In this document: positions 45,073 to 54,795 of the stretch, piece after piece
How the letters are laid out: each line of letters starts with the position of its first letter
Numbering within the stretch: the first letter of the stretch is position 1
DNA from: Alphaproteobacteria bacterium
Lineage (GTDB): Bacteria > Pseudomonadota > Alphaproteobacteria > UBA2966 > CAIVPW01
Direction of reading: 5' to 3'
Assembly (NCBI GenBank): GCA_947481575.1
Contig: CANKGV010000010.1
Coordinates: 7,501 to 71,500, forward strand
DNA length: 64,000 nucleotides
Notes under the pieces: model-generated
What the model was told of the DNA's origin: nothing
Database searches by the model: none
What the model saw: the letters and a program-made list of their open reading frames with translations, nothing else
Position numbers and translations under genes: made by a program

Positions 45073-45765
45073 CTATCGTTCCGTCCCTGGGGTGGAGCCC
45101 ACCCGGCCGATCAGGGCAATGTGGACGCCGCCACGAATCCAGTCGAAGGCGAGCCCGAGGGTGGCCGTGCGCAGGCCGGGTTCGCCCCGTGGCCCAAACA
45201 CGACCTCCACCACACACGATTGCTGCGCCGCCAAAATGGCTCCCGCACGGCAGTCGCTGACCGAAATGGCGAATTCCCCGACCGCAGAGCCAGTCACTTC
45301 CGGCTCGCCCAGCAGCCGCAGGGGCAGCGCGCCGGTGTTGGTCAGGCGGACTTGGCTGGCGGCAGGCATTGAGCCCGCAGGCGCCGCGGCAAACTCCAGC
45401 CGCTCGGCCGAATAGGGCGATGCCGCCGGCCCGCTGGTGGTCACCCGCGGCTCCGGGCTCGCGACCGAAGGCAGCGCAACAAAGGCGGCGATGTCTGCCA
45501 TGTCCTGCGCCGTAACGCGCCCCCGGAGCGGTTCCATCGCACCGACTGCGCCGATGGCATAGGCGATTGCCGCCGGGTTGTTGGCAACCCGTCCCAGGCC
45601 GTGCAGCGCGCCCGGCACACCGCCGTGGCAGTCCACACAACTAACTCCGGCACCGTTCAAGCGGCCGCCATCATTGTAGAGCAGCTTGCCGCGTAGCGCG
45701 TCCTGCCCCACGGCGGGACGCGCTACGCACGCAAACACGAGCAGGGCGAAGGGGACGACCCGCAC
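45073..45765 (-). CDS. Exported c-type cytochrome fused to an Ig-like domain
   Basis: GTG 45765 has GGGGAGG close upstream. The 230-aa product has a signal peptide (ending VGQ), a small cytochrome domain with heme motif CVDCH (residues about 43-47) and AQDMADIAAFVAL, then a C-terminal beta-sandwich region (EFAAAPAGSMPAASQVRLTNTGALPLRLLGEPEV, GEFAISVSDCRAGAILAAQQSCVVEVVFGP) resembling choice-of-anchor/ASH Ig-like domains. It begins 23 bases after phoX-like and is probably co-transcribed. Function unknown. Confidence 0.8.
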   Translation of the reverse strand: MRVVPFALLVFACVARPAVGQDALRGKLLYNDGGRLNGAGVSCVDCHGGVPGALHGLGRVANNPAAIAYAIGAVGAMEPLRGRVTAQDMADIAAFVALPSVASPEPRVTTSGPAASPYSAERLEFAAAPAGSMPAASQVRLTNTGALPLRLLGEPEVTGSAVGEFAISVSDCRAGAILAAQQSCVVEVVFGPRGEPGLRTATLGLAFDWIRGGVHIALIGRVGSTPGTER

Positions 45766-49536: not shown

Positions 49537-50568
49537 ATGATTGCCGAAACCCCTGCCCCGGCGGCGCCGCTTGCGGTGCACCACCCCCTGCGCGGCGCGC
49601 TGCTGCTTACCCTGGCGGTGCTCGTGCTGGCGTGCATGGACGCCGCCACCAAGCAACTCACCGCCCACTACAACGTGCCCCTGGTGGTCGCCGTCCGCTA
49701 CGTGGTGCACGCGCTCATCATGGTGATCGCCCTCACCCCGCGGCAGGGCAGGCAGCTCGTGCGCACCCGGCGCACCGGCCTGGTGCTGGCCCGCGCCGCA
49801 TCGCTCACCGTCGCTTCGCTGTTCATGGGCCTGGCGCTGCAGCGCATGCCGGTGGCCGAAACCACCGCCATCAATTTCCTGTCGCCGATGGTGGTGGTGC
49901 TGCTCGCCGGCCCGTTCCTGGGCGAACGGGTCGGCTGGCTCAGTTGGACCGCCGGGCTCACCGGCTTCGCCGGCGTTGTGCTGATCGCCCGCCCCGGCGG
50001 CGGGCTGGACGCCAGCGGCATCGCCTTCGCGCTATGCGCCGCCGCCGCCAACACCGCCTATCAAATCCTCTCGCGCCTGCTGGCCGGCACCGAACGCGCC
50101 GCGACCCTGATGTTCTACACCGCGCTGGTCGGCGCCATCGTCTTCGGCGCGCTGCTGCCGTGGTTTTGGTACGGGGAAGCACCGGGGATCGGCACGCTGC
50201 TGGTGTTCGCCAGCGTCGGCGCCACCGCCGCCCTCGGGCACTACCTGTTCACCCTCAGTTACCGCGACGCGCCCGCCTCGACGCTGGCGCCGCTCAACTA
50301 CCTGCAACTGCTGTGGGCGGGCATGCTTGGCTGGCTGGTGTTCGGGCACGTGCCGGATGCGGTGAGCTTTGTCGGGCTCGGTGTGGTGGCGGCGTCGGGG
50401 GCGTTGATCGCGGTGGCCGCGCGGGCGCGGCGTTCCGGCGCGCCGCAGGTGTCAGGCATCGGCAAGCAGCCCATGGTCGTTCTGCAAGACGAGGGCCGTG
50501 ACCACGGTCACGGACGACGAGGAGCGGCCCTGCTGCGGCTACTTGAGCGCCTTCTCAAGGGCGCCTAG
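49537..50568 (+). CDS. EamA/DMT-superfamily transporter
   Basis: The 343-aa inner-membrane protein has ten predicted helices in two EamA repeats: LLLTLAVLVLACMDAATKQL...FLSPMVVVLLAGPFLGERVGW and IAFALCAAAANTAYQILSRLL...LAPLNYLQLLWAGMLGWLVFGHVPD. It is likely a metabolite/drug exporter. The last 40 residues (from about 304, after ARARRSGAP) are polar and unlike the family, and the stop lies 30 bases inside the converging AbiEii-like gene. The native end may have been altered by insertion of the neighbouring module. Confidence 0.88.
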   Translation: MIAETPAPAAPLAVHHPLRGALLLTLAVLVLACMDAATKQLTAHYNVPLVVAVRYVVHALIMVIALTPRQGRQLVRTRRTGLVLARAASLTVASLFMGLALQRMPVAETTAINFLSPMVVVLLAGPFLGERVGWLSWTAGLTGFAGVVLIARPGGGLDASGIAFALCAAAANTAYQILSRLLAGTERAATLMFYTALVGAIVFGALLPWFWYGEAPGIGTLLVFASVGATAALGHYLFTLSYRDAPASTLAPLNYLQLLWAGMLGWLVFGHVPDAVSFVGLGVVAASGALIAVAARARRSGAPQVSGIGKQPMVVLQDEGRDHGHGRRGAALLRLLERLLKGA

Positions 50569-51441
50569 CAGGCGCTGAACCAAGGCACTTGCATTGCGCT
50601 GCCTTAGGATTCGGGCCTCCCTTGCGTCCGGCCCATCGCCTTCAACCTCGAATCTCGCAACTGCGACTGGACCGTCTTTGACGTGGCCTTGGTGCTCCTC
50701 ATCGCCACAGAAGCGCTTCCGCAAGATTTGGAGCGCGGCGGTGATAGTCTGGCGATGCTTGCCGGCCAACGCGATGCGGAAGGCCTCGACCGCCGAGTCG
50801 ATTCCCCCGCTTGCGTACTCGAGGCAATAAGTCAGATCGTGTGCGTCTTTGGGCTCATTGCGATCATCGAAGGCGAAGGCCTTTAGACACGTGAAGCAAA
50901 CCAAGTCAGCGTGGGCGACAGTTTCGGTTGTGATGCCGCCGCCACCGAGAAGCTCAGCAGTCACATCTCTCTTGGTATGCAGTTCGAAGACCAGGGAAGC
51001 ATGAGGGATGTTTACCGCCGAAACATTTCCCTTGGTTGGCAGCTCCTCGACCCGTTTGCCCCAAGTAGGGTCATCCGCCAGAAATTCGAGGATGATTGAA
51101 GTGCCGGCCTCAGTCTGATGCCTCCACCGCCAGTTGACCGTCTTTCCCATGTCGTTTTGCGCGCGTTCGAAACCCATTCGCTTCAGGTTCTGCTCGAGCG
51201 ACTCATATGCCTTCGTGTCTACGAGTACCGCTAAGTCCACGACGACGTCGACGTCACCAGTACCGGCATGCGGAGGGACTGCGGGCGGGCGGGCACTAAC
51301 TAGATATCGCGGCACAAGTCCGCCCACTAGAAACACCGACGTCTTCCATGGGCCAAGGCCGCGCAACAACGTCACCAGAACTCGCTCACAGTCGTGAGTG
51401 ACAAAGTCGCTATAGAGCGAAAGTGTGTTGGGCTTGCTCAC
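50539..51441 (-). CDS. AbiEii-like nucleotidyltransferase (type IV toxin candidate)
   Basis: The 300-aa product starts at GTG 51441, sharing its G with the upstream TAG stop. Nucleotidyltransferase landmarks: VFLVGGLVPRYL (GG, Arg), then GTGDVDVVVDL (catalytic Asp pair) and an AbiEii-type motif KAFAFDDRNEPKDAHDLTYCLEY. It is cytoplasmic. AbiEii toxins transfer nucleotides to cellular targets, tRNA in some cases. The antitoxin-like gene precedes it in one operon. Local sequence looks more AT-rich than the surroundings, consistent with acquisition. Confidence 0.75.
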   Translation of the reverse strand: MSKPNTLSLYSDFVTHDCERVLVTLLRGLGPWKTSVFLVGGLVPRYLVSARPPAVPPHAGTGDVDVVVDLAVLVDTKAYESLEQNLKRMGFERAQNDMGKTVNWRWRHQTEAGTSIILEFLADDPTWGKRVEELPTKGNVSAVNIPHASLVFELHTKRDVTAELLGGGGITTETVAHADLVCFTCLKAFAFDDRNEPKDAHDLTYCLEYASGGIDSAVEAFRIALAGKHRQTITAALQILRKRFCGDEEHQGHVKDGPVAVARFEVEGDGPDAREARILRQRNASALVQRLLGALEKALK

Positions 51442-52511
51442 TACGCGCCTAGAATCTCACGTCGTAGATGCTGTGCCATTTCGCTTGCTCGGCCACCAGC
51501 CTGCAGCAGATCCAAATAGGTCTGCAGGGGGTCCGCATACCACGCGTCGCCGAGCCGTCGCCGGAAAGAAAACGTTCCCATTTTGGTATCGACCACACCA
51601 AGGTTCCAGCCATCTACAACGTTACGTGCATCAAGCGACCGCAGGAGCGCCTCAAGATCTGAGCCTGTCGGCAAACGACAACGCAGCTGCGAGACAGTGG
51701 ACAGGTAGGGCGCGTAGGCCTGTGCCGCCGCCTCTCCGGTGATTGCATATGGAATCTCGTTTTCCTCGCATGCATGACTCAATTTGCGAATGAGGTCTTC
51801 GATTCGTGCCGCTGGGATGAAGTAGCGCCCGAAAGGCGAAGGTCGGGACGCAATTTGGTAATCGGTCCAAGTGTCCAGGAGTCCCCGACGATCAACTAGT
51901 CGGCGTTCCTTGTTGGGACCCACGCCCCGGTGAGAGACCCAGTCCCACTGTTCCATCGCCATGAGCGTCGCCGAGACCGTTCCCGGGGACACCCCAGATC
52001 GTCTCGCAATGTCATCGACCCCAAACCACGCGTCCTCCTGATCCCAAACCGCGTGCAAGATCTGTGCGCGCCGATCCGTGAACAACGAGCGTACTGCGCG
52101 GTTGCCCATCTTTGGGAGCGGCTTGTCTACAAAGATGAATGCGCCACGTACGGGAACGTAGAGACTCCCGCCGCTGTCGTAATACGCGACGTGCTCCTGG
52201 CGAAGAAACTCTCTAGCGCCGGGCGAGATCGATTCGGCAATCAGCATTGGGACAAATTTGCGTTCGTCGTGGGTCGTTTGGTGAGACGACAAATTCCGCA
52301 GCTGCCACACCGCCTCTCGGGCGTCACGAGGGAATGCGGAGCGCTTTACCTCAACGACGAACGTGATGGGCCGACCCCCGATTTGCGCACTAACCATCGC
52401 GTCGGCCCGCCATCCACTGACGCCAGGTTTGGCTGCATCGAGATGCGCCTCCGTTTCTGGCGCCTCTTTCAGTGCTGAAAGGAGCCGTTCGATTAGCTCA
52501 CCCGCGGTCAT
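51441..52511 (-). CDS. AbiEi-like antitoxin with PD-(D/E)XK-type N-terminal domain
   Basis: ATG 52511 gives 356 aa and leaves the inverted-repeat operator non-coding; an in-frame ATG at 52595 would run through it. Residues ~15-110 show a restriction-endonuclease-like pattern (RADAMVSAQIGGRPITFVVEVK; Asp ... Glu-x-Lys). A winged-helix region follows (RRAQILHAVWDQEDAWFGVDDIARRSGVSPGTVSATLMAMEQW), then a C-terminal AbiEi-type domain (YAITGEAAAQAYAPYLS). It probably neutralises the downstream nucleotidyltransferase and represses its own promoter. Confidence 0.72.
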   Translation of the reverse strand: MTAGELIERLLSALKEAPETEAHLDAAKPGVSGWRADAMVSAQIGGRPITFVVEVKRSAFPRDAREAVWQLRNLSSHQTTHDERKFVPMLIAESISPGAREFLRQEHVAYYDSGGSLYVPVRGAFIFVDKPLPKMGNRAVRSLFTDRRAQILHAVWDQEDAWFGVDDIARRSGVSPGTVSATLMAMEQWDWVSHRGVGPNKERRLVDRRGLLDTWTDYQIASRPSPFGRYFIPAARIEDLIRKLSHACEENEIPYAITGEAAAQAYAPYLSTVSQLRCRLPTGSDLEALLRSLDARNVVDGWNLGVVDTKMGTFSFRRRLGDAWYADPLQTYLDLLQAGGRASEMAQHLRREILGA

Positions 52512-52527
52512 TGGTTCAACCCCACAT

Positions 52528-52600
52528 ATTCCATGCCCAGCAAATATGCGGATTTGGCAGCAATATGCAACTATGTTCAGTAATTTGCTGCGCATGGAAT
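52528..52600. promoter_or_regulatory. Inverted-repeat operator/promoter of the AbiE-like operon
   Basis: 18-base arms 52528-52545 and 52583-52600 are inverted repeats with 17 of 18 positions matching. Inside, CAGCAAATATGC (52538-52549) is directly repeated as CAGCAATATGC (52558-52568). A candidate minus-strand promoter, TTGCAT (52570-52565) - 18 bases - TATTTG (52546-52541), lies under these repeats. The site starts 17 bases upstream of the antitoxin ATG, as expected for AbiEi autorepression. Confidence 0.65.
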
Positions 52601-52645
52601 TCTATCGTTCGCGACCGGTTGTCGGCACCGCCTCTTAGCCCCTCG

Positions 52646-52651
52646 TTAACC
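52646..52651 (+). promoter_or_regulatory. CtrA half-site-like TTAACC before flhA
   Basis: TTAACC is 53 bases upstream of the flhA ATG, between the AbiE operator and flhA. Confidence 0.35.
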
Positions 52652-52704
52652 ACTTCCCCTCACACTCGGCCGACCTAGGATCAGAAGGCCGAAATCCCTA
52701 TCCA

Positions 52705-54795
52705 ATGACCGATACCCCCGTCGCCGCTGCCGGCCCCGGACCGTTCCGCTTCAGTATGCGGAATGCCGACCTTGTGTTGGCGGTGGTCATCCTTGGGATC
52801 ATCGGGGCGCTGTTCCTGCCCATTCCGCCGTGGCTGCTGGATGTGTTGCTGGCCACCTCCATCACCTTCTCGGTGCTGGTGTTGATGACCGGCTTGTTCA
52901 TTTCCAAGCCGCTGGAATTCAGCGTGTTCCCCATGGTGCTGTTGCTCGCCACCATGCTGCGGCTATCGCTGAACGTGGCGAGCACGCGCCTGATTCTGAC
53001 GCACGGCAATACCGGCACCGCGGCCGCCGGCCGCGTCATCCAGGCGTTCGGCAATTTCGTCATGGGCGGCAATTTCGTCATCGGCTTGGTGGTGTTCGCC
53101 ATCCTGGTGATCGTCAATTTCGTGGTTATCACCCGCGGCGCCCAGCGCATCGCCGAAGTGGCGGCGCGCTTCAGCTTGGACGGAATGCCCGGCAAACAAA
53201 TGGCGATCGACGCCGATCTGTCTTCCGGCCTGATCGACGAAAACCAGGCGCGCAAGCGGCGCGAAGAGCTGGAGCAGGAAAGCTCGTTCTTCGGCGCCAT
53301 GGACGGCGCATCCAAGTTCGTGCGCGGCGATGCCGTGGCGGGCTTGATGATCACCTTCATCAATATCATCGGCGGCATCATCATCGGCATCGTCCAGCAG
53401 GGCATGTCGTTTTCTTCCGCCACGACGACGTACACGCTGCTCACGGTCGGCGACGGCCTGGTCACGCAAATCCCGGCGCTGATCGTCTCCATCGCCGCCG
53501 GCTTGCTGGTGTCCAAGGCCGGCACCAACGGCAAGAGCGAAGCGCTGCTGCTTAAGCAGTTCACCAATTATCCGCGCGCGCTCGGCGTGTCGTCCGTGCT
53601 GCTCGGCCTGATCGCCGTTGTGCCGGGCTTCCCGTGGCAGCCGTTCGCGCTGCTCTCGCTTGTTTCGGCCGGCGCGTGCTGGGCCGTGGTGGCGCGCAAT
53701 TCTTCCGCCAAGGCCGAAGCCGAAGAGGCGGAGGCCGAAAAGGCCGAAGCGGACGTGCCGGAAGAGCCGATCAGCGCGGTCCTCGCGGTCGATGAAGTGC
53801 GCTTGGAGCTGGGCTACGGCCTGCTGGCGTTGATCAACGAGCGCGCCGGTATCCGCGTCACCGACCAGATCAAGGCCCTGCGCCGCCAGATCGCGTCCGA
53901 CATGGGGTTTGTCATGCCGTCGGTGCGAATCTTGGACAACATGACGCTGGGCGCCAACACCTACGTGATCCGCATCCGCGAAGTGGAGGCCGGCCACGGC
54001 GACCTGCGCCCGGGCATGCTGCTGGCCATGGACCCGCGCGGCGAACGCATCACCCTGCCGGGCGAAGAAACCGTCGAACCCACATTCGGCCTGCCCGCCA
54101 TGTGGCTCGACAACGCCCACCGCGAGGAAGCGTCGTTCCGCGGCTACACGGTCGTGGACCCGGCCACCGTGATCACCACCCATTTGACCGAGGTGATCAA
54201 GGAGAACATGGCCGATCTGCTGTCGTATTCGGAAACGCAGAAGTTGCTCGACGATCTGCCCAAGGAGCAGCAAAAGCTCATCGCCGACGTGGTGCCTTCC
54301 CAGCTATCGATCAGTGCGGTCCAGCGCATTCTCCAGGGCCTGCTGCAGGAGCGCATTTCGATCCGCAACCTCACCCGTATTCTGGAAGCGATCGCCGAAG
54401 CGGTGGGCTACACGCATTCCGTGGCTGCCATCATCGAACACGTGCGCGCGCGCCTGTCGCGCCAGATTTCCGATGCCAACGCCGACGACAACGGCGTCGT
54501 CCCGCTGGTCACCATGACGCCGGAGTGGGAACAGGTGTTCGCCGAATCGATCGTCGGCCAGGGCGAGGAAAAGCAGCTTTCCATGGCGCCCTCCAAGCTC
54601 CAGGAATTCATCGCCCGCGTGCGCCAGGTGTTCGACCGCCTGGCCGGCGATGGCGAAGCCCCGGTATTGCTCACCAGCCCCGGCGCGCGGCCGTTTGTGC
54701 GCTCAATCATTGAGCGTTTCCGCCCCGCAACCGTGGTACTCTCGCAGAACGAAATTCATCCGAAGGCCAAGATCCGCACCCTCGGGCAGGTGTAG
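52705..54795 (+). CDS. flhA: Flagellar export gate protein FlhA
   Basis: The 696-aa product has eight predicted membrane helices in the first ~330 residues, the conserved FHIPEP-region motifs (MLRLSLNVASTRLIL, FVVITRGAQRIAEVAARFSLDGMPGKQMAIDADLSSGLIDENQARKRR) and a cytoplasmic domain (LELGYGLLALINE, LTEVIKENMADLLSYSETQKLLDDL, ERISIRNLTRILEAIAEA). It is the main proton-driven export gate component. In Caulobacter flhA lies close to flbD; here 12.7 kb separates them. Confidence 0.97.
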   Translation: MTDTPVAAAGPGPFRFSMRNADLVLAVVILGIIGALFLPIPPWLLDVLLATSITFSVLVLMTGLFISKPLEFSVFPMVLLLATMLRLSLNVASTRLILTHGNTGTAAAGRVIQAFGNFVMGGNFVIGLVVFAILVIVNFVVITRGAQRIAEVAARFSLDGMPGKQMAIDADLSSGLIDENQARKRREELEQESSFFGAMDGASKFVRGDAVAGLMITFINIIGGIIIGIVQQGMSFSSATTTYTLLTVGDGLVTQIPALIVSIAAGLLVSKAGTNGKSEALLLKQFTNYPRALGVSSVLLGLIAVVPGFPWQPFALLSLVSAGACWAVVARNSSAKAEAEEAEAEKAEADVPEEPISAVLAVDEVRLELGYGLLALINERAGIRVTDQIKALRRQIASDMGFVMPSVRILDNMTLGANTYVIRIREVEAGHGDLRPGMLLAMDPRGERITLPGEETVEPTFGLPAMWLDNAHREEASFRGYTVVDPATVITTHLTEVIKENMADLLSYSETQKLLDDLPKEQQKLIADVVPSQLSISAVQRILQGLLQERISIRNLTRILEAIAEAVGYTHSVAAIIEHVRARLSRQISDANADDNGVVPLVTMTPEWEQVFAESIVGQGEEKQLSMAPSKLQEFIARVRQVFDRLAGDGEAPVLLTSPGARPFVRSIIERFRPATVVLSQNEIHPKAKIRTLGQV

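Follow-up and report, generated by a model that had tools for sequence, protein, structure and literature searches.

An AbiE-like operon with a nuclease-like domain in its antitoxin

The locus lies within a window (the whole 64,000-nucleotide stretch of alphaproteobacterial DNA analyzed here) and comprises a two-gene, AbiE-like operon on the reverse strand, preceded by a long inverted repeat at 52528-52600 and, on the opposite strand, by flhA. The antitoxin/repressor gene comes first (51441..52511, 356 aa), and the GTG start of the toxin gene (50539..51441, reverse strand, 300 aa) overlaps its stop codon by 1 nt. We place the antitoxin start at 52511 because homologs begin 0 to 20 nt after O2, the operator nearest the gene (see below), and a longer open reading frame from 52595 is disfavored on the same grounds. 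A GGGG at 52520..52523 on the reverse strand, 8 nt before the ATG, is a possible weak ribosome-binding site judging from its sequence. An identical 10-base context, CCAATGACCG, surrounds the start codon of the antitoxin (52505-52514) and, on the opposite strand, that of flhA (52702-52711), which is probably due to chance.

Three domains can be distinguished in the antitoxin, all encoded on the reverse strand. The N-terminal domain (residues 1-118, 52158..52511) is PD-(D/E)XK-like and carries D37, E54, and K56, each at least 90% conserved in a 50-sequence alignment; these residues fall on or immediately beside the predicted strands 38-44 and 47-59. It therefore has the D...[D/E]xK arrangement on a beta core that defines this nuclease fold, with putative activity, and its fold matches NucS/EndoMS (probability 1.00, E about 3e-3). 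Next is a winged helix of the ArsR/MarR/IclR type (residues 139-205, 51897..52097). The C-terminal domain (51444..51896) is weakly AbiEi_2-like. The antitoxin itself scores 14.7 bits against PF09952 (AbiEi_2), below the cut-off of 21, but a distant relationship to AbiEi_2 is likely because 40 of 50 antitoxin homologs match this profile at E<=0.01. The structure model has a pLDDT of 86.7 and a pTM of 0.63, and the placement of the domains is uncertain because of the latter value.

A preliminary description had named this protein an AbiEi antitoxin. AbiEi proteins of COG5340 have only two domains, an N-terminal winged helix and a C-terminal domain, whereas here a NucS-like domain precedes a mid-protein winged helix. 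The antitoxin is therefore not a canonical COG5340 AbiEi. Likewise, the 50 top fold matches listed for it contain neither an AbiEi structure nor that of Rv2827c, and single-protein sequence searches of the PDB returned nothing useful.

The toxin is assigned to the AbiEii/MenT nucleotidyltransferase superfamily, as it carries all four motifs as defined previously (PMC3985639). Motifs I and II (hG[G/S]-x-DhD) correspond to G40 G41 ... D63 x D65, which are invariant in 40 homologs, with a spacing (x=21) longer than the published 9-15 (PMC3985639). Motif III (KLxAaxxR) is represented by K187-x-x-A190-F191-x-x-R194, with A for L, and motif IV (+DxxD) by K198-D199-A-H-D202; nearly all of these residues are invariant. 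The PF08843 score of 16 bits is below the cut-off of 22.5, and 4 of 40 homologs match this profile at E<=0.01. A structural lead is MenT1 (8an4; probability 1.00, TM(target) 0.61, E 4e-3); all fold matches of both proteins have E >0.001 and are regarded as leads. Residue T61, two positions before D63, is also invariant. MenT toxins have a phosphorylated serine or threonine (PMC11375011), and T61 may be its counterpart.

Distribution of related operons

Dozens of plasmids carry the same two-gene operon, as do many genomes of proteobacteria. Antitoxin matches occur on 77 plasmid records (each <60% identity) and toxin matches on 60 (the best at 60-64% identity), and none of the phage records has an antitoxin match. 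Whole-genome searches detected the antitoxin in 10 of the 385 class genomes and in 5 of the 398 phylum genomes, counting the source genome and including several weak matches. The seven other genomes available for the source's family gave no match. A scan of genome contigs with the antitoxin alone returned no relatives, and the same scan with a toxin alignment returned 219, of which 80 were kept. These are mostly from alpha-, beta-, and gammaproteobacteria; the few named as a planctomycete, cyanobacterium, Obscuribacter, or actinomycete are metagenome records for which misbinning is possible.

Some of these loci have unusual content. Loci L005, L006, and L012 comprise antitoxin homologs with a degenerate O2, for which no matching toxin was found downstream (L005 and L006 in particular), and a separate C-terminal antitoxin fragment. 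Related operons at L014, L015, L016, and L024 adjoin genes linked to defense or stability, including those for a TrlF-like ATPase, QatA, ABC-three-component systems, and RelE/ParE and VapC pairs.

A conserved block of probable operators precedes the antitoxin gene

The inverted repeat consists of 18-base arms at 52528-52545 (ATTCCATGCCCAGCAAAT) and 52583-52600 (ATTTGCTGCGCATGGAAT) that are complementary at 17 of 18 positions and separated by 37 nt. A repeat of this quality with a spacer of up to 100 nt was not recovered from any of 1,000 dinucleotide-preserving shuffles of 52500-52640 or from any of 300 such shuffles of 52300-52800. The DNA around the arms is AT-rich, with a GC content of 43% across 52517-52604 versus 66.7% for the whole window. 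A direct repeat, CAGCAAATATGC (52539-52550) and CAGCAATATGC (52558-52568), is present as initially described, and its second copy coincides with the central element termed Om below.

We surveyed 103 loci with an antitoxin match and scored the best two operator sites at each. In 91 of the 103 loci, the two sites are exactly 54 bp apart. From the loci with this spacing (those without it were left out), we built a family alignment of 65 sequences with <85% identity, and this revealed a conserved block of about 74 bp that immediately precedes the antitoxin start. The block averages 1.04 bits of information per column, compared to 0.04 bits for the 46 columns upstream. The block reads, in order, ATATTYRCTGYRCAGYRAATAT (O1), TTGcCA (-35), CGAATATTCG (Om), TAtAAT (-10), and ATATTYRCTGNRCAGYRAAT (O2). 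The promoter hexamers, which have a 17-bp spacer, thus interleave with the operators, and Om is centered 27 bp from both O1 and O2, at their midpoint. Information content is 1.36 bits for O1, 1.33 for Om, and 1.30 for O2; the O1 and O2 values are biased because the search consensus was taken from the first ~20 relatives, whereas Om, the hexamers, and the spacing lie outside that consensus.

In the window, O1 (52581..52602, reverse strand, GAATTCCATGCGCAGCAAATTA) aligns with the O1 sites of the 65 non-redundant operons, and O2 (52526..52547, reverse strand, ATATTTGCTGGGCATGGAATAT) is located at the expected transcription start. When matrices were made without the window sequence, the top sites in the 64 kb were 52526-52547 and 52581-52602. 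The O2 matrix placed both operators above every other site, and the O1 matrix scored an unrelated site (45216-45237, 7.9) slightly above O1 itself (7.2). Because the family matrix ranks both arms best in the 64 kb, neither arm is a half-site; both are complete operators of the dimer type. The proposal that three half-sites lie here was thus right that there are multiple sites, but the arrangement is one of four half-sites plus a central element.

The operator pair is a single occurrence in the source genome, as no sequence other than these two sites comes within three mismatches (exclusive) of the sequence they share. With the family consensus and one mismatch, three sites were found elsewhere in this genome versus one for a reversed control.

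Two further patterns were apparent among the relatives. Covariation links the inner half-sites of O1 to those of O2 (column pairs 14/57 and 13/58, with shuffle-based values of 0.001 and 0.02 that ignore shared ancestry), whereas shuffle tests of the outer half-sites gave no covariation across the family. In addition, loci L087 and L108, from the records named as cyanobacterium and Obscuribacter, carry a second GAATATA element right after O2 and before the start codon. Other palindromes occur in more distant relatives: L030 (21% identity) has a 17-bp palindrome in two identical copies, 70 bp apart, upstream of the gene, and L007 (24% identity) has a perfect 8+8 palindrome in that location. Therefore, strong palindromes of other sequence may be a wider habit among distant relatives.

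Conserved palindromes overlap the family operon promoter, as is characteristic of an operon autorepressed by its antitoxin. Because the repeat occupies the same place with near-constant spacing in about 100 related operons, it is very probably the site through which the antitoxin shuts off its own two-gene operon. The conserved block and the matrix made without the window agree with the original suggestion that an AbiE-like operon has its operator region in this repeat, where the antitoxin probably binds at more than one site.

The window copy has diverged from the family

Several elements of the block are poorly preserved in the window. The spacing between O1 and O2 is 55 bp rather than 54. 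The -35-like TGAACA (52574..52579, reverse strand) occupies the position conserved in relatives, between O1 and Om, but is weak (score 1.5 versus a family mean of 4.5). Om (TGCATATTGC, 52560..52569, reverse strand) is degenerate, with a score of 1.1 compared to a family mean of 13.5 and minimum of 1.0. Between Om and O2, the -10 position reads CCAAAT (52552..52557, reverse strand), a poor match to the family hexamer, scoring -2.0 (-0.3 for the alternative CAAATC) versus a mean of 5.4. A promoter overlapping the repeat had been considered plausible, and its position is indeed conserved in relatives, but these hexamers are weak and a sigma-70 consensus scan of the site gave no -35/-10 match. The low Om and -10 scores make it probable that the promoter is weak or shifted, and together with the 55-bp spacing they may point to displacement or decay.

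The operators themselves have changed in a distinctive manner. In O1, the inner half CAGCAAAT fits the family and the outer half ATTCCATG is altered; both operators retain the same inner half and have outer halves reading CATGGAAT. The divergence is therefore mirrored, which could reflect either distinct roles of the operator halves or templated mutation of the inverted repeat in which one arm was copied. The pattern ATTCCATG-NN-CAGCAAAT, with one mismatch allowed, matches in 46 of the 385 class genomes, where the sites are mostly single and scattered.

These differences bear on whether the site is a relic, with palindromes that persist by recent descent, a promoter that has decayed, and an operon that is little expressed from it. 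The -10 and Om elements are among the poorest of the family and the spacing is atypical, as would be expected of such a remnant. Both reading frames are nevertheless intact with their conserved nucleotidyltransferase and winged-helix residues, and identical outer-half changes in both operators would hardly arise by independent random decay. We therefore consider a relic rather unlikely.

Locus history and the neighboring flhA gene

The flhA gene starts about 104 bp from the end of O1 on the other strand, and the preliminary description had raised the prospect that repression could spill over to motility. It is very unlikely, for several reasons, that the site doubles as a divergent control region for flhA. 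The family shows no conservation upstream of O1, and homologous operons adjoin unrelated genes. Homology with relatives ends at 50411, in an EamA gene, and is regained at 52798, within flhA; in the only relative with a comparable flhA (G002), that gene is instead preceded by a 467-aa gene that is response-regulator-like from its sequence. The pairing of operator and flhA is therefore recent and arose through a lineage-specific rearrangement. Control of motility by the operator is thus unsupported. Within flhA, a 15-base tandem repeat (53705-53762) encodes an acidic, Ala/Glu/Lys-rich linker.

The same breakpoint, along with a GC content of 58.7% in this region versus 66.7% for the window, might suggest that the operon came in with a mobile element, of which the repeat would be an end or a remnant, or by insertion at an integration site represented by the repeat. 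This origin is highly improbable given that the repeat of relatives is always located just upstream of the antitoxin start, where it flanks the promoter, and that it is single-copy in the genome. At 50412-50568, the 3′ end of the EamA gene extends about 45 residues beyond the homology limit and overlaps convergently with the 3′ end of the toxin gene, which is consistent with arrival of the operon at a breakpoint.

An RNA hairpin or attenuator is the least probable alternative, since O2 would fall within the 5′ leader but the promoter does not transcribe O1, which is located upstream of it. In addition, base pairs within the O1 and O2 palindromes show no significant covariation, and no Rfam match was found.

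A proposed mechanism for autorepression

We return to the operator as a site for autorepression by the antitoxin. O1 would lie just upstream of the -35 position, Om between the two promoter hexamers, and O2 just downstream of the -10 position over the expected transcription start. The antitoxin, probably as a dimer, would bind each palindrome via its winged helix. A dimer per operator is likelier than one monomer per repeat because each arm is a full palindromic operator. Since about five helical turns separate the two sites, dimers bound there would share one face of the DNA and block access of RNA polymerase, and transcription of both toxin and antitoxin would be kept low until the antitoxin level drops. 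Cooperative binding, which had also been proposed, is suggested by the conserved spacing and the inner-half covariation. We infer binding, dimerization, repression, and cooperativity, as well as the toxin and antitoxin activities.

The nuclease-like domain invites a more elaborate scheme, in which the PD-(D/E)XK domain is functional, the repressor-antitoxin assembles a three-site complex (O1, Om, and O2) around the promoter, and foreign or damaged DNA pulls the repressor off its operator. We regard this version as quite unlikely, but if true, it would link invasion to release of the toxin.

Comparison with known systems

The closest characterized precedent is AbiE of Streptococcus agalactiae, a type IV toxin-antitoxin system (AbiEi COG5340/AbiEii COG2253). 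In systems of this type, the toxin blocks growth and is neutralized by an antitoxin that does not bind it. AbiE shares with the present operon a bicistron with the antitoxin gene first, a winged-helix antitoxin, a toxin of the DUF1814 nucleotidyltransferase superfamily, and inverted repeats over the -35, -10, and +1 positions, to which AbiEi binds (PMC3985639). In that system, there is one pair of 23-bp repeats 3 bp apart (11-bp perfect arms, N27; arm TGTTGCTTTTA), and one AbiEi monomer per repeat has been proposed (PMC3985639). In contrast, the family described here has two full palindromes of about 22 bp that are 54 bp apart with a third element between them, and its antitoxin, in which the winged helix is in mid-protein, additionally carries a PD-(D/E)XK-like domain at the N terminus. 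The protein in the paper on Mesorhizobium huakuii AbiEi has 221 aa, and that paper makes no mention of an inverted repeat.

Rv2827c of the Mycobacterium tuberculosis Rv2827c-Rv2826c pair likewise binds repeats overlapping its own promoter (PMC7319586), and the two systems share autorepression by the antitoxin, which is inferred in our case. The M. tuberculosis system differs in having four 23-bp repeats, negative cooperativity, another operator sequence, and another antitoxin architecture (PMC7319586).

A candidate likeness is to the COG4861-COG4849 pairs, in which a putative regulator is encoded next to a DUF1814 nucleotidyltransferase, based on gene order, the pattern of toxin motifs III and IV, and the AbiEi_2 (PF09952)-like region. 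These were described as predicted pairs, and the papers that we found contain no description of an operator for them. Operators of ArsR/SmtB and MarR proteins are palindromes of about 20 bp that overlap the promoter and are bound by a winged-helix repressor. The winged helix of the antitoxin resembles those of dimeric ArsR/MarR repressors, but they are small single-domain regulators, whereas nuclease-like and antitoxin-like domains are added here.

The papers that we found do not describe how this AbiE-like family is regulated. The conserved block gives this widespread proteobacterial family a sequence-defined and testable operator, in which two palindromes with a spacing of 54 bp flank a central element located between the promoter hexamers, and draws attention to the nuclease-like domain fused to the antitoxin repressor. 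An autorepression operator is known in kind, but this architecture differs from those of characterized COG5340 AbiE systems, and its three-element arrangement is new relative to the literature that we found.
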